IMG/VR virus record: IMGVR_UViG_3300022871_000110
Location: 1-24,219 of that record
Length of the DNA stretch: 24,219 nt
Source of the DNA: a virus
Reading direction: 5' to 3' (one strand)
Shown in pieces: positions 6,601 to 23,044 of the stretch. The position numbers and the translations under genes were made by a program. Numbering within the stretch: the stretch's first letter is position 1; the number at the start of each line of letters is the position of its first letter. Below the pieces are notes generated by a model that did not search any database, had not been told where the DNA came from, and worked only from the letters and a program-made list of their open reading frames with translations.

Positions 6601-7110
6601 CTACTTTTTATCCGGATTAACCCATAAAACTTTATCAACATAAGTGATTGTTCTTTTTCCCATTTTTCTGGTGGTAAATCCAAACTTAAAGAATGAATCT
6701 CGTTCTCTACCGGTCATCTGTTCAATGAGAGATTTGTAAGAGGTATCTGTCATTGTAATTATTGCTTCTAGTGTTGAATCACTATACTGCTTTTTCTCTT
6801 CGCTATTCCATTCAGAGTAAGATACTTCTTCTGAGAACCTAACATGCACTCTATGATACAGAGCCATCTTAACCCAGTGGCCATTTATCCATGCAGCTTT
6901 TTCCTTCCACTGACTTATTGGGATAACTTGACTGGTTTCTTTATCAAAATATCCCCAACTTCCATCGTCGGTCTTGAACAAATAAACAGTTTTAGATATA
7001 GTGCTATCCCATCCTTGTAATATGCTTTCCGTTTTTTCAATACACTGAAAAGGATTTTCTCCAACTTCAGCTATTTTTTTAATCCTTGGTATTTCTGTTT
7101 TGTTTGTCAT
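6601..7110 (-). CDS. Hypothetical protein, 169 aa
   Basis: Start chosen at the internal ATG (7110), which cuts the overlap with the upstream HTH gene to 32 bases; an ATG at 7146 would give 181 residues. The protein contains a strand-rich stretch with TVYLFKTDDGSWGYFD and a Trp-rich middle (AAWINGHWVKMALYHRV), then helices and a basic C-terminus. No domain recognised. No Cys pairs or membrane segments. It ends with TAG. It lies between the excisionase-type HTH gene and the small disordered gene in the same operon. Confidence 0.6.
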   Translation of the reverse strand: MTNKTEIPRIKKIAEVGENPFQCIEKTESILQGWDSTISKTVYLFKTDDGSWGYFDKETSQVIPISQWKEKAAWINGHWVKMALYHRVHVRFSEEVSYSEWNSEEKKQYSDSTLEAIITMTDTSYKSLIEQMTGRERDSFFKFGFTTRKMGKRTITYVDKVLWVNPDKK

Positions 7111-7670: not shown

Positions 7671-8036
7671 TTATTGCTTACTTGAACTATCCTTCGTTTC
7701 TTTCGTATCCTTCTTCTCTGTGGCGTCTGGTGCTTCTGGTGAGGTCTTGGTGTCGCTTTTGTCTATTTTACCACAAACTACCCCTATTTCACTCACAAAC
7801 TTGTCTAAATCCTCTAATAATGGTTCCGCGTCGACAAAATCGTAACCTTTTATTTGATCTAGTAAATTTCTTGGAAGAGAAACAACTTTGAAGATGAATA
7901 ATTTAGTCCTAGTTTCGACTGCTGTATCACTCCATTTTATTAATTGTCTCTTATTGGTCTCATTTTTAATAATCTCATCTTTCTTTTTTTTGAGATCATC
8001 TGGATTTGATCTTGCGATTAGATGTGTTTGTTTCAT
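7671..8036 (-). CDS. Hypothetical protein with charged tail, 121 aa
   Basis: A basic N-terminal helix (DDLKKKKDEIIKNETNKR) precedes a strand-rich core (TKLFIFKVVSLP) and an acidic helix. The last 30 residues are mostly Asp, Lys, Ser and Thr and probably disordered. It lies six bases downstream of the ATPase gene and is likely co-expressed with it, so a role in DNA metabolism is possible but not shown. Confidence 0.6.
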   Translation of the reverse strand: MKQTHLIARSNPDDLKKKKDEIIKNETNKRQLIKWSDTAVETRTKLFIFKVVSLPRNLLDQIKGYDFVDAEPLLEDLDKFVSEIGVVCGKIDKSDTKTSPEAPDATEKKDTKETKDSSSKQ

Positions 8037-8042
8037 GTTTTT

Positions 8043-9230
8043 TTAATTAATCTTTTTAATCTCGCCATCTTCCATAAATATTCCGACTTTACCGGAATTA
8101 TCAACTCGTTCGATCCAAACTTGCCAATCCTTATCTTTAGCCATGCTTTCTATAACTTTCATATTATCGCTATCGAGGAGAGAGCCGTCTCTGATCAGAA
8201 TGACTTTGAGCTTTGGATTACTAGCCATTGCGATGGCCATTGATACTCTTAGTTGTTCAGCTGCGGATATTTGACTATAAGGAATGTTATTGTACAAAAC
8301 CCCGTCTTCTTCCCAACTAAGCCCACTTACAGGCATCTTTACTTTCGATAGCTTATCCTTTTTCTCTTTATCAATACCAGCAATAACCCTAGTAAGCTTA
8401 TCGTATTCGCTCTTGGCCTTATCTATTTTATCAGCATCTTCAACGACCTGCCTAGAGCTTACTATCTGCTCGCTAAGAGATTGTATGTTACTAATCTCAT
8501 CTTTCATGGCAGTTAAGTCATGTAAAGGTTTCTTTACTTTTTTAAGGTTTACTATCGCTGAACGAGCATCTTTAACATAAAGTTCTTGTTCCTTAATAGC
8601 TTTAAGTGCGCGCTCGTAATTACTTACTTCAGCACTGGCGTCATTAAATTTTGATACAAGCTCTTGCATGGACGGAATCTTGGGATTTTCCTTTAATATT
8701 TTTTGCGATTCCTGAATTGATTCAGGTAATCTTGTTGGCATGGCTTTTATTTGTCTACCAACTAATAATCTATCCTGGGTAAGTTCCTTCTTCTTTTCAT
8801 CTAACGGTGAGAGATCAAGCCCAACGACTCTTGTAAGCTCGTCAACTTGTTTTTTATTGTCGAGCCTTGAAAACTCCAGAGGATCAAACGATAAGCTTCC
8901 AACCACATAATCAAGGAATTCCTGTGGATTGCTATATTTAGATCCTTCGCCATTCGTAACAGATAGATATGAACCGCTTTCAGTGAATGTTCTCTTTACG
9001 ATATATCCATCTAGATCTATTTCGATCTCGGCCTTCTCTTCGCCATCACGGATTGGCTTTTGCTGTGCAGCTTTCTTGCCACCCAGCGCGTACCATATTG
9101 AGTCTAGAACCGAAGTCTTTCCTTGACCATTCTTTCCAGTGACTAATATGACATTTTTATTCTCGTCAAGCTTTAGCTCAACGGCCTTCAATTTTTTAAT
9201 GTTATTTGATTTTAATTCTATAATTTTCAT
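8043..9230 (-). CDS. RecF/SbcC-type AAA ATPase
   Basis: 395 residues. The N-terminus IIELKSNNIKKLKAVEL is the usual RecF/SMC-type first strand. Walker A is GKNGQGKTS at residues 32-40. A Q-loop region and a long helical, coiled-coil-prone middle (about 130-300) follow. The C-terminal signature is ISAAEQLRVSMAIAM at about 321-335, then VILIRDGSLLDSDN at about 344-357. A canonical Walker B D-E pair is not seen; the aligned place reads RDG, so the catalytic Glu may be absent or shifted. The protein is shorter than SbcC and lacks a zinc hook. It is encoded near a PD-(D/E)XK nuclease, which fits a recombination or end-processing pair. Its start abuts the upstream stop (TAAATG). Confidence 0.85.
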   Translation of the reverse strand: MKIIELKSNNIKKLKAVELKLDENKNVILVTGKNGQGKTSVLDSIWYALGGKKAAQQKPIRDGEEKAEIEIDLDGYIVKRTFTESGSYLSVTNGEGSKYSNPQEFLDYVVGSLSFDPLEFSRLDNKKQVDELTRVVGLDLSPLDEKKKELTQDRLLVGRQIKAMPTRLPESIQESQKILKENPKIPSMQELVSKFNDASAEVSNYERALKAIKEQELYVKDARSAIVNLKKVKKPLHDLTAMKDEISNIQSLSEQIVSSRQVVEDADKIDKAKSEYDKLTRVIAGIDKEKKDKLSKVKMPVSGLSWEEDGVLYNNIPYSQISAAEQLRVSMAIAMASNPKLKVILIRDGSLLDSDNMKVIESMAKDKDWQVWIERVDNSGKVGIFMEDGEIKKIN

Positions 9231-9841: not shown

Positions 9842-10018
9842 TTATTTAATCTTAGATTTAATAACTTCAAATCCTTCTATAATATCTATTTTATGTCCCA
9901 ATCTTTGGAGTGTCATTGGTAAATGCGCTGGACATGTTGTAGACCAAGTCCATCTTCCACATTTAATACGCCTTTTTCTATTGATTGGTCTGTATTGTAT
10001 TATCTTTTCTTTAGTCAT
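9842..10018 (-). CDS. Small basic protein, 58 aa
   Basis: This short gene starts one base after the stop of the nuclease gene (TAAC-ATG). It encodes a basic N-terminus (RPINRKRRIKCGRW) with two Cys at about residues 20 and 29, then HLPMTLQRLGHKIDIIEGF. The coupled start and the fill of an otherwise empty 180-bp gap support it as real. Function unknown. Confidence 0.6.
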   Translation of the reverse strand: MTKEKIIQYRPINRKRRIKCGRWTWSTTCPAHLPMTLQRLGHKIDIIEGFEVIKSKIK

Positions 10019-10019
10019 G

Positions 10020-10937
10020 TTATTTTAATTCGCTCGGATCGAATCTTACTTGATTCTTTTTACGAGTAGAATATCCAGTGGTTACTTTTCTAATTATCTC
10101 TAGCTCTTTTTCTGAATATCCTAGGCACGTTCCTTGCTTCTTAACAATCATGTCTTTGAAGTCACTGTACTTGATTTGCCAATCTCCGTGAACAGATTTA
10201 TCGTTTCGCGCCTTAGAGATTATAGAGGATGATACATTATCCCAATTAATCTTATCAACAGGATATTTATATAGGTATTCTATTTTTGGTTCTATTCCTG
10301 GCTTGACGTTCTCAATCCAGATCTTCTCGAATCTCTTAAAGACTCGTTCTAGATCTATCTCAACCGTATTGTCGGGACAGATAAAGTGATGAGGATTGTC
10401 TCCAGTTTGATACAAGTCGTACTCATATCGCTCGCCAGTACCTTGATTAATCATTAATAGAATTCCTCGCTTGATCTTTAAGTGATATAGATAGATAGCT
10501 AACTGAGACAGATAAGATGTCTTTACATCTCCTATCCGTACCCTGCTATGCTGAAATCCTCCGTAATACGTTTTTACTTCTACAATGATTTCTTCGCCGT
10601 TTATCTCTATTCCTGCATCAGGATATCCAGAGATCGGGACCTTGTGTTTGCCCCATTCGAAAAAACATCTCTCGTCATTGGAAAATCTTTCTATAAGTTT
10701 TCCGGACTTTCTTAGGAAGAGAATAACGGCTTCTTCCGTAAGCTTGCGCATCTTTAACATCATAAGCTTCTCTTCACTTATAGGATTGGTAGGCTTAGTT
10801 CCTATCCACCTATGGAAGATCTCAAAGGCCATGATCTCTGACTCAGAGGCCCAGAAGGTTGACTTCTTTTTGCCAAGATATTCTTCGTTTCTCGATAATT
10901 TAATTGACTCGTCTAGTAGTGGAATTATTAATGACAT
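10020..10937 (-). CDS. PD-(D/E)XK nuclease (RecB/Cas4-like)
   Basis: 305 residues from the ATG at 10937; an upstream ATG at 11003 would overlap the previous gene by 104 bases. The nuclease core is clear: E69 in the KLTEEAV helix, D107 in GYPDAGI, and E120-x-K122 in IIVEVKTYYG. A RecB-family motif with Q145 follows in SYLSQLAIYLYHLK. These are the metal-binding and QxxxY-type residues of the lambda-exonuclease/RecB/Cas4 group. No Cys cluster is present, so it is not a Fe-S Cas4. The C-terminal 130 residues are charged. With the RecF-like ATPase in the same operon it probably resects or processes phage DNA ends. Confidence 0.8.
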   Translation of the reverse strand: MSLIIPLLDESIKLSRNEEYLGKKKSTFWASESEIMAFEIFHRWIGTKPTNPISEEKLMMLKMRKLTEEAVILFLRKSGKLIERFSNDERCFFEWGKHKVPISGYPDAGIEINGEEIIVEVKTYYGGFQHSRVRIGDVKTSYLSQLAIYLYHLKIKRGILLMINQGTGERYEYDLYQTGDNPHHFICPDNTVEIDLERVFKRFEKIWIENVKPGIEPKIEYLYKYPVDKINWDNVSSSIISKARNDKSVHGDWQIKYSDFKDMIVKKQGTCLGYSEKELEIIRKVTTGYSTRKKNQVRFDPSELK

Positions 10938-11103
10938 TTTGTTTGTTTGGCTTGTTATAAACACGAATACGGTTACGTCCTGAGTAAGGATCGCAATATA
11001 CATGACCGAACTTGCTTAACGCCTTCAGAGATTTATCACTTAATAAATCCATGAGATTTGTCCCATTATTTCTAGTTATTATCTTTCGTGTCTTAGTTGC
11101 CAT
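10900..11103 (-). CDS. Hypothetical protein, 67 aa, first gene after promoter
   Basis: The start at 11103 lies six bases after a TATAAT hexamer, so the mRNA would begin at or beside the ATG. An in-frame ATG at 11121 lies upstream of that promoter element and is less likely. The protein is basic (MATKTRKIITRNN) with one Cys and a RNRIRVYNK segment. No family recognised. It overlaps the nuclease start by 38 bases. Confidence 0.55.
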   Translation of the reverse strand: MATKTRKIITRNNGTNLMDLLSDKSLKALSKFGHVYCDPYSGRNRIRVYNKPNKQNVINNSTTRRVN

Positions 11104-11109
11104 AAGTTG

Positions 11110-11138
11110 ATTATAACACATCTTAGATACCCTTAAAA
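11110..11138 (-). promoter_or_regulatory. Extended -10 promoter, near-leaderless
   Basis: On the minus strand TGTTATAAT gives a perfect -10 (TATAAT, 11115-11110) with a TGn extension. Seventeen bases upstream is a poor -35 (TTTTAA, 11138-11133). The expected start point coincides with the ATG at 11103, so the transcript should have no leader or almost none. Confidence 0.65.
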
Positions 11139-11142
11139 GCTC

Positions 11143-11409
11143 TTACTTATCCACAGCCATCTCCTTAAACATGATACTTGTAAAGTATCGACCGGGATTT
11201 CTTGGGTTCATTTCTTTAACAAGAGTTACTTTTTTTCGCACAAAGTAGTCAGGAAACACCTTGCAGATTTTCATATATATTCCTATATGATCCATATCGT
11301 CGAAGCCCTTAGCAACATCAATTGCGAGTTGTTGGTGTGCAGAATGAACTTTTTGTGTCTCTCCTTTCCTATCTTTAAGTTTATTTAGATAGTCTCCTAT
11401 TGATTCCAT
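11143..11409 (-). CDS. Hypothetical protein, 88 aa
   Basis: Start at 11409, ten bases after the upstream stop; an ATG at 11436 would overlap it. The protein is mixed alpha/beta (MESIGDYLNKLKDRKGE, then DDMDHIGIYMKICKVFP). It ends FTSIMFKEMAVDK; those last codons happen to contain a TTATCCACA word on the plus strand. No domain recognised. It lies just upstream of the promoter for the next operon. Confidence 0.6.
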   Translation of the reverse strand: MESIGDYLNKLKDRKGETQKVHSAHQQLAIDVAKGFDDMDHIGIYMKICKVFPDYFVRKKVTLVKEMNPRNPGRYFTSIMFKEMAVDK

Positions 11410-11419
11410 TGTTATAGTT

Positions 11420-11806
11420 TTACCAATTAATCTCACCCATGCAGTTGTCTATTGTATCTGTAAAGATGCCTATTGATTCATCTGAGGCATCATCAGTATA
11501 TAGCGATACAAAGAATTCAAATAGATTATCTTCTCCAACTCTTTTTAACATATAGTCGTATGTACACTGGCAATAGTCTTCTTGGCCTCCAATTTCTTCC
11601 GTGCAACCCCAAATATAGTCGTCTCTCATTGAATAGCTGCTAGTCAAATCATCATCTTTTAAGAACTCTCTTACAAGACTTTCAGTGGGTATGTTTTGTT
11701 CTTTTCGCTGATTACTAATGTAATAATTATTAGCAATCAGAGTTGAGATACCGATAGCTGCTATCAATATTGCGCCTCCTATGATCCAAGCTGTTTTATT
11801 TTTCAT
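11420..11806 (-). CDS. Membrane-anchored Cys-containing protein, 128 aa
   Basis: An N-terminal basic start (MKNKTAW) and hydrophobic segment at about residues 8-25 (IIGGAILIAAIGISTLIA) act as an anchor or uncleaved signal. The remaining 100 residues are acidic and should lie outside the membrane. Four Cys are in the soluble part (WGCTEE, YCQCTY, DNCMGE), consistent with two disulfides or a metal site. It is placed next to another anchored protein with a 3D domain, so both may act at the cell envelope. Family not recognised. Confidence 0.65.
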   Translation of the reverse strand: MKNKTAWIIGGAILIAAIGISTLIANNYYISNQRKEQNIPTESLVREFLKDDDLTSSYSMRDDYIWGCTEEIGGQEDYCQCTYDYMLKRVGEDNLFEFFVSLYTDDASDESIGIFTDTIDNCMGEINW

Positions 11807-11810
11807 TGTT

Positions 11811-12302
11811 TTATTTTGAGTTATAAATTTTAATTAATTTTTCTTGAACGCCCCAGTTAATTGCATCAGTCGTAGTTTCCATCCAGATATCGAAGTTATA
11901 ATTATCTCTATATCTTGGAGCCATACGATCCTCACAAGTATAAATTTTCCCGTCTATTCCTATTTTAGTTTCTAGATCCATAAAGGATGGGCACGCGATA
12001 GCACCATTGTATACAATTTTTCCGCTTGCCATTATAAATGGATCGCTATCAGTTTTAGATACTTCTGAATTATAGGCATAGACCTTAGCTACCACCTCTA
12101 TATGGTTATTAACTACAGGAGTGATTGCTTCATCAGTGTATCTATCTAGGCCAAGAGTCTCGATGTAATACTCAATACTCTCACAGTAACAAACCACAAT
12201 CAGGAGAGTAGCGATTAGACAAGCCCAGATAAGTTTAGAAAAGCTTCCCGGCCCTAGGTGACGGGATAAGATCTTTTTCATAGTCATATAATCCTTTTTC
12301 AT
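11811..12302 (-). CDS. Membrane-anchored 3D-domain protein
   Basis: 163 residues. A hydrophobic segment at about 23-42 (KLIWACLIATLLIVVCYC) follows a basic start. The C-terminal part resembles the 3D (Asp-Asp-Asp) domain, a double-psi beta-barrel of peptidoglycan lytic transglycosylase type: a CPSFMDLETKI strand, TCEDRMA, then FDIWM and TTDAINWG. This corresponds to the A-x-D-x-G / D-I-Y-F / A-x-x-W-G series of that family. The match is partial and the first Asp region is altered. It may remodel host peptidoglycan during infection. An ATG at 12287 with AAGGA upstream is an alternative start. It overlaps the upstream gene by 50-70 bases. Confidence 0.65.
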   Translation of the reverse strand: MKKDYMTMKKILSRHLGPGSFSKLIWACLIATLLIVVCYCESIEYYIETLGLDRYTDEAITPVVNNHIEVVAKVYAYNSEVSKTDSDPFIMASGKIVYNGAIACPSFMDLETKIGIDGKIYTCEDRMAPRYRDNYNFDIWMETTTDAINWGVQEKLIKIYNSK

Positions 12303-12780
12303 CTAACAATTCAATCAGTTTAGGGAAATCCCTAACTGTCACATAATGAGACTCGACGATCTCATTTGTGATTTGATTAAGTGTTATTTGGATTGGAATG
12401 TCTCTTTTGCCAGCAAAGAATTCCTTAGCGCGTTTCATATTAAGGCCGAAGAGTGCTTTGCGACTCTTTCCATGCTCATCTTTTGGCTTATATACTACGC
12501 CTCCAAATCTGACTAAATCACCAAAGCGAGCGTAGTTATTTTTAGATAACAGATGCTTAATATCCTTAGTCTCGAACTCGTGGACTTCTTTTTCTCCACA
12601 CCACTTATATATCTCGTACAGCGCGCTTATAAGCTCCTTATAGAGCGTAACCTTCCTGTCCTTTATGTTATGGCCACAGGTTGGGCAAAAGCCAAGTTTC
12701 TTCCTGAGTATACTGTCTCCTTCCAGAACGGCACGAAAATCCTTCGCCTTCCTAAATAACTTAAAGTTAGTGGTACTCAT
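12235..12780 (-). CDS. Zinc-knuckle phage protein, 181 aa
   Basis: Start at 12780, inside the end of the upstream gene; the ATG at 12819 would overlap more. A C-x-x-C pair (FCPTCGHNI) lies at about residues 31-36; a second pair is not obvious, so metal binding is possible but incomplete. The rest has helices (YKELISALYEIYKWCG, KDIKHLL) followed by a strand pair (GGVVYKPKD, LFGLNM). This order suggests a winged-helix-like DNA-binding domain, an inference from pattern only. It ends inside the 3D-domain gene. Confidence 0.65.
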   Translation of the reverse strand: MSTTNFKLFRKAKDFRAVLEGDSILRKKLGFCPTCGHNIKDRKVTLYKELISALYEIYKWCGEKEVHEFETKDIKHLLSKNNYARFGDLVRFGGVVYKPKDEHGKSRKALFGLNMKRAKEFFAGKRDIPIQITLNQITNEIVESHYVTVRDFPKLIELLDEKGLYDYEKDLIPSPRAGKLF

Positions 12781-12961
12781 GTTTGATTTTGAATTTATTA
12801 CTTCTATCTTGAGACTCAAATCCCTCCTTAGTCTTTTCTAATAAAGAGAGGAAGACACTATTAAATAGAGTGCGTTGACCTCTATTGGCAAACCTAATAT
12901 CTATTGTAACAGTCATGTAGTTGCCAATGTGTTTCTTTCTTTTGAAGTATTTTTTGAACAT
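12767..12961 (-). CDS. Hypothetical basic protein, 64 aa
   Basis: Basic start (MFKKYFKRKK), a strand (YMTVTIDIRFA) and a helix (LFNSVFLSLLEKTKEGF), ending FKIKHEYH. One base separates it from the upstream stop. It overlaps the next gene's start by 14 bases, a typical coupled junction. Function unknown. Confidence 0.6.
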   Translation of the reverse strand: MFKKYFKRKKHIGNYMTVTIDIRFANRGQRTLFNSVFLSLLEKTKEGFESQDRSNKFKIKHEYH

Positions 12962-12962
12962 A

Positions 12963-13151
12963 TTAATCTTTTCTCTGGGCTAATTTTAGGAGAATATTCG
13001 TCCAGAAGTTAAGTTTTTTAATCGCTTTTATGTGATCATTTTTAGTTGAAATCATAGCTGTTTCTTTAATGTGTACAGCCGCATGAACTACCAGCGCGAG
13101 GACTTCGTCACTTGAAAGGTTAAGTTCTTTAATTTTTAATTTTGTGCTCAT
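12963..13151 (-). CDS. Hypothetical helical protein, 62 aa
   Basis: Short helical protein: LSSDEVLALVVHAAVHIKE then KAIKKLNFWTNILLKLAQRK. No membrane segment is certain because the hydrophobic helix is broken by charged residues. It sits between a two-TM gene and a basic small gene. Function unknown. Confidence 0.6.
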   Translation of the reverse strand: MSTKLKIKELNLSSDEVLALVVHAAVHIKETAMISTKNDHIKAIKKLNFWTNILLKLAQRKD

Positions 13152-13160
13152 ATTTTTTGA

Positions 13161-13367
13161 TTAATGTTTTAGAACAGCAACAGTAAATATAAATGCTATA
13201 AATACCGCTACTACAAACGCAGTCACTCCATCAGAACCCTTTCCTATTGCTAATATAAGTAAGCCGACCATTACTATGACAAATATAAGGGTTACTAAGG
13301 CGACTACTATGACGCCACGACGATCTTCTTCGTGATAAAACTGTTCTATTTTTTTTGTTATCTTCAT
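13161..13367 (-). CDS. Two-TM membrane protein, 68 aa
   Basis: A charged N-terminus (MKITKKIEQFYHEEDRR) is followed by helix 1 (GVIVVALVTLIFVIVMVGLL), a short GKGSDG loop and helix 2 (AFVVAVFIAFIFTVAVL). Its ATGAAGA start directly follows copy 1 of the junction repeat. An early membrane protein of unknown role. Confidence 0.65.
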   Translation of the reverse strand: MKITKKIEQFYHEEDRRGVIVVALVTLIFVIVMVGLLILAIGKGSDGVTAFVVAVFIAFIFTVAVLKH

Positions 13368-13370
13368 AGT

Positions 13371-13400
13371 TATATATTACTAAGTTAATTTGCTATTTGG
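13371..13400 (-). repeat. Junction repeat, copy 1
   Basis: Plus-strand core ACTAAGTTAATTTGCTATTT. On the minus strand it encodes the last codons (N-S-K-L-T-stop) of the 53-aa gene and leads into TAATATATAACT then ATG of the next gene. Confidence 0.8.
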
Positions 13401-13541
13401 TTTTTTTTGTTCAATTAAGTCTAATGCCTTTGCTATGTTAGATAAGCCTTTCTTGCGCAACCACGTACTTGTGTTCATGTTTTTACGAGCATCCATTTTA
13501 ATGCCATATTCCTTTTCAATATCACGTATCTTCATTTTCAT
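13380..13541 (-). CDS. Small protein with possible HTH, 53 aa
   Basis: This gene is bounded by junction repeats on both sides and its stop (TAG) lies inside copy 1. The protein reads MKMKIRDIEKEYGIKMDARK, then NTSTWLRKKGLSNIAKALD. The spacing of helices could form a small helix-turn-helix, but this is not certain. Two in-frame ATG codons (13541 and 13535) are possible starts. Function unknown. Confidence 0.6.
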   Translation of the reverse strand: MKMKIRDIEKEYGIKMDARKNMNTSTWLRKKGLSNIAKALDLIEQKKPNSKLT

Positions 13542-13564
13542 ATTACTAAGTTAATTTACTATTT
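13541..13564 (-). repeat. Junction repeat, copy 2
   Basis: Core ACTAAGTTAATTTACTATTT. It starts immediately after the 3' end of the 219-nt tRNA-like element and ends at the ATG of the 53-aa gene. Confidence 0.8.
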
Positions 13565-13783
13565 GGTGAGAGCGAGGATTTGCACCTCGCATGCAGACAG
13601 TTGGCACGTATGCGCCCTGTCCTACTCTATGCAAGTAGTATCCACTAAATTTTCTCAGCAATGATTATTTGCAACTAATCATCTCAAAAAGTTAGCTTCA
13701 ACGCCACACTCTATTGCTCTCGTGTATCTTCGGGACTTGTATCTGCACCGAAGCCTTTGCGTCTACTATTCCGCCACCTCACC
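13565..13783 (-). ncRNA. 219-nt tRNA-Leu-like RNA with long insert
   Basis: The minus strand begins GGTGAGG-TG-GCG, then GAATAGTAGA-CGC, the acceptor, linker and D-arm of a tRNA-Leu. It ends with a T-arm-like hairpin (GCGAGG-TGCAAAT-CCTCGC) and TCTCACC, which pairs with the first seven bases (one G-U). Instead of a normal anticodon and variable arm there are about 140 nt with further hairpins (plus coordinates): 13728-13753 (6 bp), 13661-13682 (7 bp), 13622-13638 (5 bp), 13596-13621 (5 bp plus inner 5 bp). A G-U pair in the inner stem exists only if the minus strand is transcribed. No group I intron core was recognised and no anticodon stem could be assigned. It could be an intron-bearing or decayed tRNA, or a new RNA built on a tRNA frame. 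Confidence 0.5.
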
Positions 13784-13822
13784 AAGCAATAAACTAATTT
13801 ATTGAACATTAGTATCTCTTGT

Positions 13823-14221
13823 TTAGTCATGGTCTATTGCGTTAAATTCTTTATAGAAATATTCTTTCTGATGTTCTTCATTGAAATATTGTGCGGCTAG
13901 GTCAAAGAGCCTCTTACATACTTCTATATGGCTTCGCCACTTCCTTCCACCACAGATATGTATATATCCTTCTTCGCCAAAGTAAACATGAGAACATCCA
14001 TCCCATTTTATTGTTCCGTCCATATAGGTTTCGGCATCCCCTAACTTTTTGGTAGTATCTACAGAGCTATCAACGCCTTTCTTTTCGTATATCGGAATAT
14101 TAAATTTCCCAAAAAAGTTTTGTTCGTGCCCAACAATTTCATAGACCCAAAAATTCATAAATGTATCACCGTATTCAATTAGACAAATAAAGTCCATGTC
14201 TTCCCAAGTTATTTTCTTCAT
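13823..14221 (-). CDS. Hypothetical protein, 132 aa
   Basis: A soluble, aromatic-rich protein: WEDMDFICLIEYGDTFMNFW, then a middle with GCSHVYFGEEGYIHICGG and a basic CKRLFDLAAQYF helix. Several Cys (about residues 13, 76, 90, 102) are scattered and do not form a clear knuckle. Its ATGAAGA start directly follows junction repeat copy 3. No family recognised. Confidence 0.6.
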   Translation of the reverse strand: MKKITWEDMDFICLIEYGDTFMNFWVYEIVGHEQNFFGKFNIPIYEKKGVDSSVDTTKKLGDAETYMDGTIKWDGCSHVYFGEEGYIHICGGRKWRSHIEVCKRLFDLAAQYFNEEHQKEYFYKEFNAIDHD

Positions 14222-14223
14222 AG

Positions 14224-14252
14224 CTATATATTACTAAGTTAAATTACTATTT
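14224..14252 (-). repeat. Junction repeat, copy 3
   Basis: Core ACTAAGTTAAATTACTATTT. It forms the last codons (N-S-N-L-T-stop) of the 79-aa gene and the leader of the 132-aa gene. Confidence 0.8.
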
Positions 14253-14473
14253 ATTTCTCCACTTTTAATAAGGTCATACATTAACTTTAGTGGCACAATT
14301 CCCTGCACCAATTCTTTCTTATCAAACTTTTCACAATACTCATCTAGTATCTCTTGTGTAAGCCCATCTCCCTTTTCCGTGGGCAATCTGCCCTTAACTC
14401 GTAGAAAAATATCTACTTCTTCAAAGTTATAATTTTTCTTTGCTATAAAAATCGGTCTATTAAGTTCTTTCAT
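14234..14473 (-). CDS. Hypothetical protein, 79 aa
   Basis: Short soluble protein (ELNRPIFIAKKNYNFEEVDI, then TQEILDEYCEKFDKKELV). Its ATG overlaps the upstream stop by one base (TAATG). Its last residues (NSNLT) and TAG stop are supplied by junction repeat copy 3. Function unknown. Confidence 0.6.
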   Translation of the reverse strand: MKELNRPIFIAKKNYNFEEVDIFLRVKGRLPTEKGDGLTQEILDEYCEKFDKKELVQGIVPLKLMYDLIKSGEINSNLT

Positions 14474-14682
14474 TATGTGCTTTCTATTAAATTTTTAATA
14501 CTTTGTGGATTGTTATAACCCATAATGCGAGCAATTTCTCGATAAGAATACTTTTCTGCTCTCAATGACTTTGCAATATACTTAGCGTCAACCTGTATAT
14601 TGAAATATGGATTAAGTTTATTTGGAATATCTATTGTTCCTTTTCCTTTGCATATTGGACATTTTAATTCCTTCTTCTTCAT
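14473..14682 (-). CDS. Zinc-knuckle plus HTH protein, 69 aa
   Basis: A C-x-x-C knuckle (KCPICKGKG) at residues 8-11 resembles half of a zinc ribbon or the DnaJ-type CxxCxGxG motif. It is followed by a helix-turn-helix candidate (YSYREIARIMGYNNPQSIKN) near residues 45-64, with the R-E-I-A-R-I-M-G pattern of sigma-70 region 4 or AsnC-like HTHs. A small DNA-binding regulator is likely. The start follows junction repeat copy 4. Confidence 0.7.
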   Translation of the reverse strand: MKKKELKCPICKGKGTIDIPNKLNPYFNIQVDAKYIAKSLRAEKYSYREIARIMGYNNPQSIKNLIEST

Positions 14683-14685
14683 AGT

Positions 14686-14714
14686 TATATATTACTAAGT
14701 TAAATTATTATTTG
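14686..14714 (-). repeat. Junction repeat, copy 4
   Basis: Core ACTAAGTTAAATTATTATTT. It provides the N-N-N-L-T-stop end of the 69-aa gene and the leader of the zinc-knuckle gene. Confidence 0.8.
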
Positions 14715-14904
14715 GCATTTCTATCTCAAGCCCTCTACCGTACCATTTTTCATTATTGTTGTGAATCTTTTCATAATTAGTCAAGCAACCAACCAAGTAT
14801 TCTGCTAAAATAAAGTCTGGAGTATTTGATAGATTCTCTCGACAATGCTTATTTATTAGCTCACTCAGCTCTTTTTCAAATTGTTTTATTGTGCTATCTG
14901 GCAT
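14695..14904 (-). CDS. Hypothetical helical protein, 69 aa
   Basis: Acidic, helical (TIKQFEKELSELINKHC, DFILAEYLVGCLTNYEK) with end NNNLT-stop inside junction repeat copy 4. The start lies about 40 bases downstream of the 60-nt tRNA-like RNA, with junction repeat copy 5 between. Function unknown. Confidence 0.6.
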   Translation of the reverse strand: MPDSTIKQFEKELSELINKHCRENLSNTPDFILAEYLVGCLTNYEKIHNNNEKWYGRGLEIEMPNNNLT

Positions 14905-14917
14905 GTTTTTGTATACA

Positions 14918-14944
14918 CATATTACTAAGTTAATTTACTATTTA
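14918..14944 (-). repeat. Junction repeat, copy 5
   Basis: Core ACTAAGTTAATTTACTATTT. It lies between the 3' end of the 60-nt tRNA-like RNA and the next gene's ATG. Here it is wholly noncoding. Confidence 0.8.
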
Positions 14945-14945
14945 A

Positions 14946-15005
14946 GCCCCAGGGAGGAATTGCACCTCCTACAGGCATATCTGCCAGCGCGCTCTTTACT
15001 GGGGC
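14946..15005 (-). ncRNA. 60-nt tRNA-like RNA
   Basis: GCCCCAG pairs with CTGGGGC as a perfect 7-bp acceptor-like stem. A T-arm-like hairpin (GGAGG-TGCAATT-CCTCC) follows tRNA spacing exactly. The middle is only 29 nt instead of about 41. It reads TAAAGAGCGCGCTGGC, like the 3' half of a D-arm plus the start of an anticodon arm, and its only hairpin is GGCA-GATA-TGCC. A normal tRNA is therefore not possible as written. It may be a deleted tRNA gene or a minimal tRNA-like structure. No CCA is encoded. Confidence 0.5.
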
Positions 15006-18206: not shown

Positions 18207-18389
18207 TTATTTGTTTTGAAAAATAAGTCTATCTCCTACCATGTAAAAATATATATCTTTATCTTTATCAACCCAGAAGATTGGTGAATTATATATAAAG
18301 TCTTCTCCTTTTATTTGTTTAATCTCATTCTTAGAAAGTCTTTTTTTTAACAGCTCAACATTTTTCAATAAGTCTTTTTTAGTTATCAT
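18207..18389 (-). CDS. Hypothetical protein, 60 aa
   Basis: A basic helical N-terminus (KKDLLKNVELLKKRLSKNE) leads to a strand-rich, aromatic end (NSPIFWVDKDKDIYFYMVGD). It starts eight bases downstream of the upstream stop. No family recognised. Confidence 0.55.
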   Translation of the reverse strand: MITKKDLLKNVELLKKRLSKNEIKQIKGEDFIYNSPIFWVDKDKDIYFYMVGDRLIFQNK

Positions 18390-18397
18390 TGTTTTAT

Positions 18398-18565
18398 TTA
18401 AGAGTTATAAGCTATACACTCATCGACTTGCTCAACGCTCAACAGCTCCGGCAAGCGGTAAACTGATATTTCGTGCTTTGCCTCTTGCTCATCATATCCC
18501 AGCACATCAACCAAGTAATTTAATAACATTTCTTTACTCAATTTTTTGTGTTTTATTTCTGCCAT
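18398..18565 (-). CDS. Hypothetical acidic protein, 55 aa, first gene of the operon
   Basis: First gene after the strong leftward promoter. It reads MAEIKHKKLSKEMLLNYLVD, then GYDEQEAKHEISVYRLPELL. Probably a small helical protein made early and in quantity because of its place; such first genes are often host-takeover factors, but nothing in the sequence shows this. Leader of about 30 nt without a clear Shine-Dalgarno site. Confidence 0.6.
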   Translation of the reverse strand: MAEIKHKKLSKEMLLNYLVDVLGYDEQEAKHEISVYRLPELLSVEQVDECIAYNS

Positions 18566-18601
18566 GTTTTTTTAATAAACTTATTAATCAATCCTAAGTC
18601 T

Positions 18602-18630
18602 ATTTTAGCATACGCTATAATACATGTCAA
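18602..18630 (-). promoter_or_regulatory. Strong sigma-70-type leftward promoter
   Basis: On the minus strand TTGACA (18630-18625), a 17-base spacer, then TAAAAT (18607-18602) preceded by TGC. This is a near-consensus early promoter for the operon starting at 18565. Confidence 0.85.
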
Positions 18631-18667
18631 TAGTTTTCAATGCTTTTCAATGATTGACAATGCTTCC
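18627..18667. repeat. Four 10-bp phased repeats beside the early promoter
   Basis: TCAATAGTT-TTCAATGCTT-TTCAATGATT-GACAATGCTT: the word (T/G)(T/A)CAAT(G/A) recurs every 10 bp, once per helical turn, abutting the -35 of the leftward promoter. Likely an operator array or iterons. Confidence 0.55.
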
Positions 18668-18728
18668 CAAACTCAACGCTAGCTTGCTATATAAAAGCAC
18701 AAAAAATCCCCTTATTTAATGCCATGAG

Positions 18729-18737
18729 TTATCCACA
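18729..18737 (+). promoter_or_regulatory. DnaA box (TTATCCACA)
   Basis: A perfect match to the 9-base consensus, in noncoding DNA, about 100 bp upstream of the early promoter. A second perfect box in opposite orientation lies at the other end of the noncoding region. Confidence 0.55.
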
Positions 18738-18961
18738 GCCCCGCCGAACAAAAAAAAAGAATAAGATCATCCGAAGCTTCGCCGCTAGGCGTAAGTCTTT
18801 TTGCCTTATAGTCAATATCTCATCATTAATCCGATCCGTCCCGTTCTCGCCGGCTCGCCCATTGTTTTCAACATATATAGTAAAGACCAACCCAGAAGAG
18901 TATCACCAACGAAACGCCTTATAGTAATCTTCTCCACTTAATAGATATAGTTTCGTCGAAC

Positions 18962-18990
18962 AAAAAAAAAGAGACGAATATGTTTCGCCT
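18962..18990 (-). terminator. Leftward intrinsic terminator
   Basis: On the minus strand AGGCGAA-ACATA-TTCGTCT (7 bp, one G-U) is followed by C and nine T residues (18970-18962). Confidence 0.8.
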
Positions 18991-19437
18991 CAATTGTTCC
19001 CCTTCCTATTAGTTGTCTTCATCGTGTGTCTCGCTTACATTTGTTTTTACCTACAATGCAAGCAGTTGCACCCTTGTGTCCCTTATAGTGTTCTTCAACA
19101 CCTTTGTCTCCATTGTGTTGCACACTACACATTTGCCCACTGTGCCAGCACTTGTACACATTGTACACGGGGGGGTACACTGTGTTTGTACACATTGTGA
19201 TACATTGTGTTGCAATAGGTGTGATATTGTGTACAGGTTGTCTACACCTCTGCAAACAAATGTACAACAGTAGAAAACCATCTACTGGAAAAGGTAGTGA
19301 GGGGTCATACAAGAGCGATCTTAGCATTCTAGGATTCTACCTCTATAACACAGGGTTTTCTCAAAGTGTATCTACAATGCTATCACTATGTATCAGTTTG
19401 TAACCATTTGTAGCACCTGTCATCCCAGTGTGACAAT
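18991..19437. other. Noncoding DNA with TACA/TTGTG repeat cluster
   Basis: Frames on both strands are open for 70-100 codons but low in complexity and rich in Cys and Val, so none is accepted. Between 19150 and 19270 TACA words begin at 19155, 19164, 19176, 19189, 19201, 19232, 19243 and 19263, mostly 9-13 bp apart. They often lie within TTGTACACATTGT or ACATTGTG. They look like iterons or clustered protein sites, perhaps part of an origin. No gene seen. Confidence 0.5.
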
Positions 19438-19464
19438 AAAAAAACACTATAGGAAGAGTGTTTT
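19438..19464 (-). terminator. Leftward intrinsic terminator
   Basis: On the minus strand AAAACACT-CTTCCTAT-AGTGTTTT (8 bp) runs into a tract of seven T residues in all. On the plus strand only four T follow, so leftward termination is favoured. Confidence 0.65.
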
Positions 19465-19499
19465 ACACTATAGCAATAGCTTGTAACAACAGGAGGCGA

Positions 19500-19660
19500 G
19501 GAGTTGCAACGGGAGAGATTTGAATCTCTTCTTTGTCTTATAGGATATCCTCAATTATTTTCGACGAAATGTCATTTCCCCCAACTATAAGCGTATAGTT
19601 CGAGGCTGTGATCAGAACCCGATTACGATCGGGGGAGAGGACACTCCGCTTAATGGATAT
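19500..19660. ncRNA. Cluster of hairpins, possible structured RNA
   Basis: No gene. Consecutive stems: AGAGAT-TTGA-ATCTCT (19514-19529), AACTATA-AGCG-TATAGTT (19583-19600), CCCGAT-TACG-ATCGGG (19618-19633), GGAG/CTCC (19634-19647). On the minus strand the first resembles a T-arm (AGAGATTCAAATCTCT) but no acceptor partner was found. Orientation is uncertain; a leftward terminator follows at 19438. Confidence 0.4.
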
Positions 19661-19707
19661 TCCCTATATAGCAATTCCTATATATATTTTTTTTCAATCG
19701 GCGCTTA

Positions 19708-19737
19708 TTGACACGATAATATTCCTCATGCTAGGAT
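19708..19737 (+). promoter_or_regulatory. Rightward sigma-70-type promoter of a small RNA
   Basis: TTGACA (19708-19713), an 18-base spacer ending in TGC, then TAGGAT (19732-19737). There is no open frame downstream before a terminator at 19870. Confidence 0.65.
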
Positions 19738-19743
19738 CTTATA

Positions 19744-19896
19744 GAGTTCGGATTTTCTCAACCTGTAGAGCTATCCTGGGTTAATACTTACGAACATTTT
19801 ATAGGTACATACAGCTTATAATCTACTAGAAAAAACTCAGAGCTTCGATGGGTATAAAACTTGCAATCAATCTCCTTTATTATAAGGGGATTTTTT
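19744..19896 (+). ncRNA. Small RNA of about 150 nt between promoter and terminator
   Basis: Defined by the promoter at 19708-19737 and the intrinsic terminator at 19870-19896. It has no start codon with a ribosome binding site and no open frame of note. No match to a known RNA family (6S, tmRNA, RNase P) was recognised. A role in phage or host regulation is possible. Confidence 0.55.
19870..19896 (+). terminator. Rightward intrinsic terminator of the small RNA
   Basis: ATCTCCTT (19870-19877) pairs with AAGGGGAT (19884-19891; one T-G), 6-base loop, followed by a T tract through 19896. Confidence 0.75.
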
Positions 19897-20573
19897 GCTT
19901 GGGCCAGGCGAGCAAGGGGATTGGCTAAAGTTATGTATTTAATATATGTATATTATTACATGAGCTATCTCCAAACTTGCCTGGTCCTACATCCCTTGTG
20001 TGTCGAAGGTAAGAAATAACACTCAATTATATGCTATTCGCCCGTTCTCGTACCCGTCCTGGCATTTCAACCAGGAAGGTCCCACAGACTTGACGTTGGA
20101 TCAGCTTGGCCTTCTGTGGTCGTTATTACTTCCGGGCCTTCTGAACGCGCCGCTTTATTAATGGTGGAGATTTAGGCCACACGCACGGCGATTTACCATC
20201 AGTGATGGTTTAGATTATTAATCTAATTCGTGTTATATATTTTTTATTGTGTACTTTTAGGGGTGGGCAGATTTTGTCTGTGTGTCCACAGGTTTGTCTG
20301 AAATAAGAATCTACTCAGTTTAGATAAGAAACTTCAGACTAATTCTTAATGTGAGCCAAAATTGGGTTTTTTGTATATTCGTTTTCTATGTCTAAATATT
20401 ATGAGATTTTTTTTGAAGGTACTGCCCTGACCCACCCTTAGAAGGTCGCAATATATTAGAGAGGAATGGATGACTTCACCCGAGTTAAGAATCTATGCAA
20501 TAGATTTTTTTCGAAGAACAGTTGAAGCCCTACTTACACGCAGTATCGAAGCCATAACTCTTTTATATTATAT
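19897..20573. other. Noncoding region with many hairpins
   Basis: No gene seen. Stems: TCCTGG/CCAGGA (20057-20062, 20071-20076), CCACAGA/TCTGTGG (20082-20088, 20113-20119), ACCATC-AGT-GATGGT (20195-20209) and TAGATT-ATT-AATCTA (20211-20225). A possible H-type pseudoknot lies at 20296-20347 (GTCTGA/TCAGAC interleaved with AAGAAT/ATTCTT). GGCCTTCTG is repeated at 20108 and 20135. The content suggests structured RNA or origin DNA. Strand is not decided. Confidence 0.4.
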
Positions 20574-20601
20574 AAAAAAACCAACCTTGTTATCGGCTGG
20601 T
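20574..20601 (-). terminator. Leftward intrinsic terminator
   Basis: On the minus strand ACCAGCC-GATAACAA-GGTTGGT (7 bp, one G-U) is followed by six T residues. It must stop a leftward transcript started within 20602-20760 or read from the right; no leftward gene lies there. Confidence 0.7.
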
Positions 20602-20703
20602 ATGGTCTGCTAGGTTGTTTGCTATGTATTGCATTTAGTTTTTTAGATATTCTCAACTAATAATAGTTTACTCTTTATTTTTAATTATACAATTATGCTA
20701 ACC

Positions 20704-20712
20704 TGTGGATAA
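20704..20712 (-). promoter_or_regulatory. DnaA box (TTATCCACA, minus strand)
   Basis: A perfect 9-base match, ending one base before the -35 of the late promoter. Binding of host DnaA here could affect late transcription as well as replication. Confidence 0.5.
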
Positions 20713-20713
20713 G

Positions 20714-20742
20714 TTGCAGAAAGACATTCAAAGTATTATAAT
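20714..20742 (+). promoter_or_regulatory. Rightward promoter of the terminase operon
   Basis: TTGCAG (20714-20719), exactly 17 bases, TATAAT (20737-20742). The expected start gives a leader of about 15 nt before ATG 20764, with no Shine-Dalgarno site. Confidence 0.8.
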
Positions 20743-20763
20743 AATAGCAAGTAATCAACACTA

Positions 20764-21312
20764 ATGACACAACGAAAAAAGTTAAAAAAAATAAGAATAA
20801 CAGCGATACAGAAATCTGAATATTTCTCCAAAATAATGGAGAAGTATGAGCTAGTGGGAAGACACATGACCAGTGCTGATTTTCATAAGAAATATGTTGA
20901 GACTCTAGATCCTACAATATCTTATAGGCAATGGAACTTTCACGTTTCGAAGATCGATAAAAAGATTGCTATAAAAACTAATAAGATTATGAACCGAGTT
21001 AGTGACAGCGCAATCACTGACATGAAGATGGAACAAAATTCTCTTAGAAAGATTCTTACTATCGCAGACATTACGCTAGAAGAAGTAATAGACAAGCCAG
21101 AGTTATTGGAACAAATACCAATAGCGAAAAGAATGGCGTGGTTTTTTAGTACCATGAATGCAAGAGACTCAAGAATGACTGCGGTAGCTAAGATAAATGC
21201 CGAGAAACGAAAAACAAGTATGTTTGAAGACATGCTTCAGAGCGCGCAATACGGAGGAGAAGGATCTGTAGACCAGCTTGAAGGTGCTATAGTTCAAGAA
21301 AATGCAGAATAA
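20764..21312 (+). CDS. terS: Putative small terminase subunit
   Basis: 182 residues, directly before the large terminase gene and overlapping it by 11 bases. The N-terminus is very basic (RKKLKKIRITAIQK). A helical DNA-binding-like part with MTSADFHKKYVETLDPTISY follows, then a long helical middle (about 75-150) suited to oligomerisation and an acidic end (EGSVDQLEGAIVQENAE). TerS proteins are poorly conserved; the call rests on position, size and helical make-up. In a packaging motor it would recognise phage DNA and regulate the large subunit. First gene after the 20714-20742 promoter. Confidence 0.65.
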   Translation: MTQRKKLKKIRITAIQKSEYFSKIMEKYELVGRHMTSADFHKKYVETLDPTISYRQWNFHVSKIDKKIAIKTNKIMNRVSDSAITDMKMEQNSLRKILTIADITLEEVIDKPELLEQIPIAKRMAWFFSTMNARDSRMTAVAKINAEKRKTSMFEDMLQSAQYGGEGSVDQLEGAIVQENAE

Positions 21313-23044
21313 CAAAAATCACTCAAAAACTATAAAAGAAATGTCTGACCAAGAAAGGGAAACAGTTCTTCCTTTGGTAGAAGCAATTGCAAAAGGGAGA
21401 AAAGATCCTGTTTTTTTTGGAGAGCACTTTCTAGGACTGAAATTTCATCCTAGTCAAAAGATTTGGCTCTGGCTGACAACAAAGACTCAAATAAAAAGAG
21501 CACATGAGCTGGCTGTTGCAGTAGGTATAGAATTGCCAGAGTTAGAAGAGTTACTGATCCACCCATTTTTGAAGAACATTTTGTGCCCAGCAAATAGATT
21601 TGGCAAGACCTTTGTTACATCTGTCAAACATATATGGTATAATTTTTATAAGATCGGATGTAAGGGTCCACCGGAATACATTCATGACGTCCGATATAGT
21701 ACCTTAAATATCTCACCTCACTCATTACAGGTTGATGCAGCCTATAGATATATCATTGATATATTCGATAATAAGTTTATTTACGAATGGGATGGAGCGA
21801 AAGTCAGGAATAATTGTATTTTGCAAGGATTTCTAGTCGATCACAAACAAACCAGGCGCGAAATAATCTTTAATAATAACGCAACGATCAAAGGCGTTCC
21901 AACAGGAGAAGATCAGGCTTCATCATTAGCCGGAACACAATTCTTCTATATTTCATACGATGAAGCACCTCAATCTCTGCATCTTCGCAAGGAGTTGCCT
22001 GCAAAGATTCAATCTAGGTTGATTGATTCTGGTGGTCCATTAGACATTATTGGCACTCCAGAGGTTGATAAACCATCTCATACTTACTATCAACGCATAG
22101 TAAAGCAAGGAATTGGTCTTAAAAAGGGCTTCTTTACTCTTCTTGGTAAGCTATCAGAGAATATATTTATTGGCGAAGAAGAAAAAAGTATCACTTTAGA
22201 AGCAATTAGACAGACAGATCCTGAAAAATATAGGCAAGTTGCCTTCGGAGAGTTTGTCACTTCAGGAGCAAAGCTTCTTCCAAACATCGCAGTATCAAGA
22301 TTATGGGAAGGAGAGACTCCATTGCAGATGGGTGAACCAAATAAGCACTACATTATCGGTGCTGACTGGGGATTTTCCGACACAGGTGATCCAACAGTCT
22401 TCTATATCTTTGACTATACAGAGCTGTTAGACGTTCTCAATAGCCAAGCGAAGCCGAAAAATGACAAAGTATTATACAAAGTAGTCTTCCGGGAATCAAT
22501 AAAAGGAGGATCTCCGTATGCAGTTCTAGCAAAACTTAAAATATTACAACAAGATTTCAATGATGCAAGGATTATTCATGATTCATCTTCTATGGGAGGA
22601 ACTATGATAAAGAAAATGCTCAGAGAGATGCACGTCCGTCATATATACGATTTCAGCTTCACGAGTGGAGGAAATCCGAAAGATGAAATGCTTTTCCTCA
22701 TGGCAAGAGCACTAACAAGCGGTCGTGCAGTCAAAACAACAGAAGATGGAAGAATTGAAGAATTAAATCCAGACTTTGGCAAGGTAAGATCGTACTATAT
22801 TGCTGATCTAGAAGAGCAACTCGGTAATTATCGCATTGACGATAGCAAGCTCGAGCAAGATGAAGTAATGGCATTCGGACTACCAATATGGTTCTGCGAA
22901 AAGAAGCTCTCTGGTCATAGAAATAAAGTATTTAATCTAAATATACTTGCCGATAAGCCAGAGCAAATTATAAATATTCCAGACAATAAAAATAAAGAAA
23001 TAAAAACAAAATCATTTAACATCAGCGAAAGAATTATCGGATAA
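21302..23044 (+). CDS. terL: Terminase large subunit
   Basis: 580 residues with both motor and nuclease motifs. Walker A-like CPANRFGKTF lies at residues 95-104 (arginine-bearing, as usual in TerL). Walker B FFYISYDE lies at 214-221 with D220-E221. The coupling motif is IIGTPE at 249-254. The RNase H-like nuclease has D355 in IIGADWGFSD, D427 in RIIHDSSS and a late acidic pair D520-E521 in KLEQDEVMAFGL. It powers DNA packaging into proheads and cuts concatemers. Start overlaps the upstream gene by 11 bases; the portal gene follows after five bases. Length and motif order are normal for the family. Confidence 0.95.
   Translation: MQNNKNHSKTIKEMSDQERETVLPLVEAIAKGRKDPVFFGEHFLGLKFHPSQKIWLWLTTKTQIKRAHELAVAVGIELPELEELLIHPFLKNILCPANRFGKTFVTSVKHIWYNFYKIGCKGPPEYIHDVRYSTLNISPHSLQVDAAYRYIIDIFDNKFIYEWDGAKVRNNCILQGFLVDHKQTRREIIFNNNATIKGVPTGEDQASSLAGTQFFYISYDEAPQSLHLRKELPAKIQSRLIDSGGPLDIIGTPEVDKPSHTYYQRIVKQGIGLKKGFFTLLGKLSENIFIGEEEKSITLEAIRQTDPEKYRQVAFGEFVTSGAKLLPNIAVSRLWEGETPLQMGEPNKHYIIGADWGFSDTGDPTVFYIFDYTELLDVLNSQAKPKNDKVLYKVVFRESIKGGSPYAVLAKLKILQQDFNDARIIHDSSSMGGTMIKKMLREMHVRHIYDFSFTSGGNPKDEMLFLMARALTSGRAVKTTEDGRIEELNPDFGKVRSYYIADLEEQLGNYRIDDSKLEQDEVMAFGLPIWFCEKKLSGHRNKVFNLNILADKPEQIINIPDNKNKEIKTKSFNISERIIG

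Follow-up and report, generated by a model that had tools for sequence, protein, structure and literature searches.

What does a phage whose genes are otherwise packed almost end to end keep in 2.1 kb that seems to encode no protein? The window, by which we mean the whole stretch of 24,219 nucleotides analysed here, is an entire viral contig (G000). Its early genes read leftward on the minus strand, the last of them near position 18570 forming the left border of the gap, and TerS, TerL and the portal gene read rightward on the plus strand from position 20764; the terminase matches phrog_2 and the portal is SPP1-like, and TerS, having no family match, is named by position alone. Median spacing between mechanically called ORFs is 4.5–15 bases in four related genomes, so the gap is exceptional, as a preliminary description of this DNA had held. 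Elsewhere in the window, the product of the first ORF (2–892) contains numerous imperfect copies of a QAKGRIE-like unit, and across positions 10000–15000 the related genome G001 is longer by 423 bases between identical sampled flanks, which reflects an insertion, a deletion or an assembly difference.

Between the last early gene and TerS we found no conserved protein frame, and positions 18631–20760, described earlier as lacking a convincing one, are indeed free of it. The longest stop-free run in the gap is 105 codons, a length equalled by 37 of 200 shuffles. Those frames that match relatives sit on conserved DNA, in several frames and on both strands and with no codon periodicity; net indels were not a multiple of three in three of six comparisons with relatives, and substitutions were spread across the three codon positions (10/56, 11/58 and 13/56 against L005, for example). 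Because matches follow conserved DNA in this way, a protein reading was rejected with both translation tables tried (11 and 4), and the conserved genes under another code that could have overturned the noncoding view did not appear.

Relatives were gathered through TerL, yielding 20 loci in the viral collection, or 24 with the alignment query, and none in 50,697 phage records. Four of these (L001–L004) are identical in DNA (100%) to the window over the parts covered, and two relatives of about 42 kb (G003 and G004) have direct repeats at their termini, 127 and 123 bases long respectively, as circular assemblies should. A blastn query with positions 18301–21320 matched inside the gap of L005, L009, L012, L017 and L020; L015 was added by sequence, in agreement with nhmmer and with the covariance model described below (R1), both built with L015 included. 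Comparison across relatives revealed three conserved noncoding elements in the gap, which we call E1, E2 and E3. E3 is present once per genome, and in all six relatives that have at least 62% TerL identity and sufficient DNA upstream of TerS; the other TerL loci at or above 62% start within TerS or TerL, or shortly ahead of them, and thus fall outside this count. Together with the window, the six relatives provide seven distinct E3 sequences (window, L005, L009, L012, L015, L017 and L020).

E3 lies at 19985–20202 on the minus strand, with its core at 20034–20202. We recognized its structure by eye in alignment A2, which contains the seven sequences on the minus strand, and then counted. The 37 pairs comprise 253 cells, 92.9% of them paired as compared with 71.6% in shuffles; 23 of the 37 pairs are changed on both sides (54 such cells) against 12.5 in shuffles, and the covariation score is 0.634 against 0.221. 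None of 500 shuffles reached the real value on any of five measures, and sliding the structure by 1–3 columns reduced the paired cells to 34.6–44.7%, a control that favours the structure since this was derived from the same sequences. Additionally, a mechanical helix scan, blind to the structure, recovered on the minus strand a 7-bp helix d together with 5-bp helices c and a; its plus-strand result lacked c and contained d and a in shortened form only.

In the predicted fold, read 5′ to 3′, a helix P1 encloses hairpin P2 and is followed by a stem of short helices a, b and c. The apical loop of this stem contains the near-invariant GGAAGUAAUAACGA, followed by a 7-nt strand pairing just 3′ of the stem, which creates an H-type pseudoknot (helix d); the 3′ part consists of a hairpin, P6, and of a conserved tail that includes GGGCGAAUA. 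Helix d, of 7 bp, is paired in 49/49 cells and has double changes in six pairs, and helices c (34/35) and a (28/28) are nearly as consistent; helix b is weak (15/21). A shorter alignment without helix d (A6) is 95.4% paired. Most of P1 and P2 is missing from L015 in A2, and L012 (5850–5960) has an insertion of about 90 bases inside P6 that retains both arms, the P6 loop being therefore variable. The near-invariant loop sequence GAAGUAAUAACGA (window about 20115–20135, minus strand) is, we presume, similar to the decoding-site stretch of 16S rRNA, which may be chance; a search for the loop sequence in the open-licence literature found it in no paper text.

The strand was assigned from the wobble pairs. 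G-U and A-C counts exchange when a structure is read on the opposite strand, and G-U outnumbers A-C by 20 to 4 among the 253 helix cells, so that the RNA corresponds to the minus strand; our first reading by eye, as a plus-strand RNA, was dropped on this test. Folding energies were lower on the minus strand in 7/7 sequences for one choice of stretch and in 5/6 for another (exception, L020). For stretches of 147–149 nt the energies of the window and L020 do not favour the minus strand, and nested folding was no better than in shuffles on either strand (z −1.06 to 0.94). Single-sequence hairpins thus say little, and the evidence for E3 is its covariation. We regard the structure and strand of E3 as very nearly certain, from seven sequences of one phage group, a small sample. 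By these comparisons E3 is a previously unlisted, newly seen RNA family, pseudoknotted and encoded on the minus strand, and the suspicion that the gap harbours a noncoding RNA locus was well founded. A single long RNA spanning E3 through E1 was considered and discarded, as no covarying helix occurs outside E3, and E1 and E2 were treated apart.

The distribution of E3 was examined with R1, a covariance model of 168 positions for the core. R1 matched each of the seven distinct sequences once (112–182 bits) and nothing else in 33 sources (402,680 bases) that include four near-complete or complete genomes; matches to the building sequences arise by construction, and the result informs on copy number and on absence elsewhere. 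In the sequence of the records of six terminase relatives at 46–54% TerL identity R1 found no E3, nor did it find any in 395 and 392 genomes of two arbitrarily chosen phyla, searched with stricter filters and no positive control. Likewise, blastn of E3 against phages and plasmids, and of the gap region against phages, gave no match. When the viral collection, and in a single scan genome contigs, were searched by pattern, true E3 came up in this phage group alone. Among the other loci with the pattern, L027, L030–L033, L035 and L036–L039 have no E3 around it (nhmmer E 1.7 or worse where listed) and L053 (nhmmer E 0.53) has none by sequence; for 17 further loci (L068–L084) the best R1 match, in L077 (E 0.042), covers part of the model alone, and L069, L073, L074, L075 and L080 had no match even at a limit of E 10.

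Identity of E3 to the window is 132/169 in L005, 114/168 in L009, 116/165 in L012, 83/145 in L015, 111/167 in L017 and 115/165 in L020. By tblastn, 6 of 30 early minus-strand ORFs of the window, some of which may not be genes, match all of G002–G004 and 20 match none; in these three genomes TerS retains 43, 45 and 27% protein identity. E3 is present in all three, and its retention despite so many changed neighbours suggests a basic role in the phage.

We then considered how E3 would be supplied. Terminator-like sites, four of which had been proposed, are more frequent in the gap than expected (5 against 1.5). For the promoters also proposed there the outcome was divided: their count does not exceed chance (6 against 8.7 expected), and conserved positions support some of them. 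At the left end, the early promoter P_E (18602–18630, minus strand; TTGACA-17-TAAAAT, 11/12 consensus, with TG before the second hexamer) reads into the early genes, and L017 and L020 likewise carry strong minus-strand promoters at this end of the block. A terminator-like hairpin with a T run lies at 18971–18991 on the minus strand (8 pairs, 4 of them G-C), and another, T1, at 20580–20601 on the same strand between TerS and E3, an element found in 6/7 records, L015 being the exception. The presumed late promoter before TerS (20714–20742, plus strand; TTGCAG-17-TATAAT) was read from the sequence and falls below the scan threshold, its first hexamer being weak and its second perfect; plus-strand promoter-like sites of at least 9/12 occur near TerS in L009, L012, L020 and L015, and not in L005, L017 or the window.

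Several TerS starts in G001–G004 lie just behind a TATAAT box, such that the TerS mRNA may be leaderless. Of the 137 ORFs in G001–G004 with 120 codons or more, only 12 are preceded by an SD-like motif, by a rough estimate about the chance level, and the host may therefore make little use of SD. The 11-mer ATCACCTCCTT, which we take to be like the 3′ end of 16S rRNA, occurs on either strand once each in L017 (near 8188), L005 (near 6949) and L020 (near 8188); each copy falls in the noncoding block, with no start codon evident beside it.

For leftward transcription, a minus-strand promoter beside TerS (at least 10/12) is present in 5/7 records, the window and L020 excepted, at a shuffle rate of 5.5–21.5%. 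Between T1 and E3, L020 has three minus-strand tRNA calls (7811–8524; Asn, Gln and one untyped) and L012 has ORFs on that strand, an arrangement suggesting that these phages make use of leftward transcription here. Alternatively, E3 could have its own start in place of the promoter beside TerS, although no such start emerged.

On its left, E3 faces a second candidate unit. E2, including its promoter, spans 19708–19897 on the plus strand, tail-to-tail with E3. A promoter (TTGACA-18-TAGGAT, 19708–19737) precedes a presumed small RNA (19745–19897, its start placed from the promoter) with the conserved sequence AGAGCTAT...ACTCAGAGC, and a terminator at 19869–19892 closes the unit. In alignment A3, which leaves out L015 as the AGAGCTAT core is not evident there, AGAGCTAT is invariant in 6/6 records. 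The sigma-70-like promoter (at least 10/12) is found in 5/6 records, L017 being the exception (shuffle rate 1–6% per record), and the terminator in the homologous place in 6/6 (shuffle rate 1–9.5% per record); from its end to the conserved 3′ end of E3 there are 12–145 nt. The mechanical scan found no covarying helix in E2, so that the case for E2 rests on conserved sequence and signals rather than on structure. E2 looks like a small RNA gene, and we think it quite probable that it is a transcribed unit. In L020, a plus-strand tRNA-Met (6998–7070) lies inside the unit, between promoter and core.

Taking these results together, we lean towards reading the gap as a conserved noncoding block with two facing units, in which E3 acts as an RNA and E2 limits leftward transcripts. 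We infer that both are transcribed, and the start and end points given for them are inferred likewise. E3 would probably be transcribed leftward from the minus-strand promoter beside TerS, past T1; since T1 sits between this presumed promoter and E3, read-through of T1 must be assumed. The RNA would fold compactly and act as such by binding a phage or host machine. E2 would be read rightward from its sigma-70-like promoter to its own terminator and, facing E3, might limit or titrate leftward transcripts running beyond the 3′ end of E3. The array and E1 on the left would probably be a DNA element, possibly a replication origin. The functional part of this model is tentative, resting on position, and L015, with neither the AGAGCTAT core nor T1, counts against the model as a whole.

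The terminators also admit another role for E3, as a cis-acting leader, put-RNA- or attenuator-like, that lets polymerase pass the terminators of the 2.1-kb stretch. Several of them lie on the leftward path with E3 between them, and put RNAs are described in PMC9378689 as cis RNAs near early promoters, of about 70 nt and two stem-loops, that suppress terminators. However, E3 is downstream of T1 and within a single transcript cannot act on it; past the gap the early genes are served by a strong promoter of their own (18602–18630), and the fold of E3 is larger than that described for put RNA and pseudoknotted. We consider such a leader unlikely.

The left part of the block bears on replication. 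E1 (19225–19460, no strand assigned; alignment A4, 7 records) is a conserved noncoding sequence ending in AAAAAAACACTATAGGAAG. The sequence AAAAAACACTATAGGAAG, searched in an 18-base form, was confined to six stretches in the entire viral collection, each belonging to this phage family, and the mechanical scan found no covarying helix in E1. E1 also contains AACACTATAGGAAG, which we take to resemble a T7- or SP6-like phage promoter; genomes with this motif have a single copy of it. The RNA polymerase model PF00940 had no match in five records and none in control genomes either, an empty test. Overlapping the left end of E1 is an array of short imperfect repeats (19019–19262, limits set by eye; no strand assigned): in positions 18631–19440 there are five copies of ACANNNTGT against 0.1 expected, and six of CA[CT][ACT][GT]TGT against 0.07. 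Such repeats are enriched left of E1 in 4/6 records (window, L005, L020 and L009), and not in L017 or L012. Perfect DnaA-box-like sites TTATCCACA are found at 18729–18737 (plus strand) and 20704–20712 (minus strand). Over six records, 8 of 19 such sites lie inside the gap (2/4, 2/3, 2/7, 1/2, 0/2 and 1/1 by record; none in the gap of L009) where about 1.4 would be expected by length, a post hoc comparison made after two had been seen by eye. The array and E1 together are probably a DNA element and possibly a replication origin.

An origin had already been suggested for the gap, and could be combined with the two facing units. The array, E1 and the DnaA-box-like sites would form the origin, with E3 as leftward pre-primer or activator and E2 as counter-transcript, in control of the ColE1 type; more broadly, E3 and E2 might constitute an RNA-run switch of replication or timing, with E3 as primer, activator or scaffold. 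The excess of TTATCCACA sites and the enriched array argue for an origin, no replication protein was recognised among the window ORFs scanned, and the cumulative GC skew reaches its lowest point near 19500. Conversely, the skew turn proves nothing alone because gene direction suffices to explain it, the TTATCCACA comparison was post hoc with L009 lacking gap sites, the array is absent from L017 and L012, and early genes of unassigned role could encode the initiator. RNA I of ColE1 is an antisense RNA that overlaps the structured part of the primer RNA II, unlike the cores of E2 and E3, which do not overlap. Both forms of this proposal, the ColE1-type control and the broader switch, appear to us rather improbable.

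The preliminary description had also raised an identity with the large RNAs GOLLD or ROOL. This was not borne out: at E ≤ 1 the models RF02032 and RF03087 matched none of seven records, scans with all Rfam families returned neither RNA, and the accession given for GOLLD, RF01998, is that of group-II-D1D4-1, GOLLD being RF02032. The GOLLD and ROOL models matched no control genome either, and therefore do not establish sensitivity. In the gap, an Rfam 15 scan was empty at gathering scores and gave only chance-level matches up to E 5, and in L024, L026, L015 and L021 an Rfam scan found no family beyond chance and no pRNA family. Among the phage structured RNAs of the open-licence literature, none was identifiable with E3. 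As for a tRNA neighbourhood, ARAGORN called no tRNA in the window, and among 10 loci L020 alone has nearby calls (four), which makes one of the six E3-bearing relatives outside the window's own phage and one of seven distinct records.

Could E3 still be a divergent ornate RNA of the GOLLD or ROOL kind, beyond the reach of the models? The phage setting, the pseudoknot and the tRNAs near E3 in L020 would fit, GOLLD and ROOL being placed near tRNA islands in phages by PMC12286853. Against this stand the empty searches (with models that had no positive control), tRNAs in a single record of seven, and a core of about 170–220 nt as compared with 416 and 574 model positions, and we find such kinship very unlikely. 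Least probable of all is a packaging-linked RNA that would work with terminase in the manner of phi29 pRNA. E3 is invariably found upstream of TerS-TerL and is retained along with them, but the E3 homologues were themselves found through terminase, the six terminase relatives at 46–54% identity have no E3 in their records, these phages carry TerS in the ordinary way, no pRNA family was matched with Rfam, and position alone is weak.

The locus is also of wider interest. There are few known examples of a structured RNA that is retained within a phage group more strictly than the majority of the early proteins. E3 combines strong covariation and a defined strand with a modelled core of 169 nt, a size suited to probing, crystallography or cryo-EM, and the covariance model could be rebuilt by others and used in searches. 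Should E3 act in replication, transcription or packaging, phage biology would gain a new RNA component; should it oligomerize, it would belong with the ornate RNAs, whose function is unknown.

Comparison with known systems places E3 near several of them. Like the HK022 put RNA, it is a structured phage RNA near control promoters and terminators; according to PMC9378689, put RNA has two stem-loops in about 70 nt and precedes the terminators that it suppresses, whereas E3, which lies past T1, has P1/P2 and P6 in addition to its pseudoknot. Like phi29 pRNA, E3 is a conserved RNA kept beside packaging genes, although it has no Rfam match, is not known to be linked to the portal, and its phages do have TerS. 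Like GOLLD and ROOL, it is a pseudoknot-bearing noncoding RNA encoded by a phage, and one relative has tRNAs close by; it differs from them in its smaller core, in having no covariance-model match, in its facing partner E2 and in being confined so far to one uncultivated phage group. As in the RNA I/RNA II pair of ColE1, two opposed RNA units would occupy a gene-poor stretch with possible origin features, but the ColE1 RNAs overlap, whereas E2 faces the 3′ side of E3 with the two cores apart.
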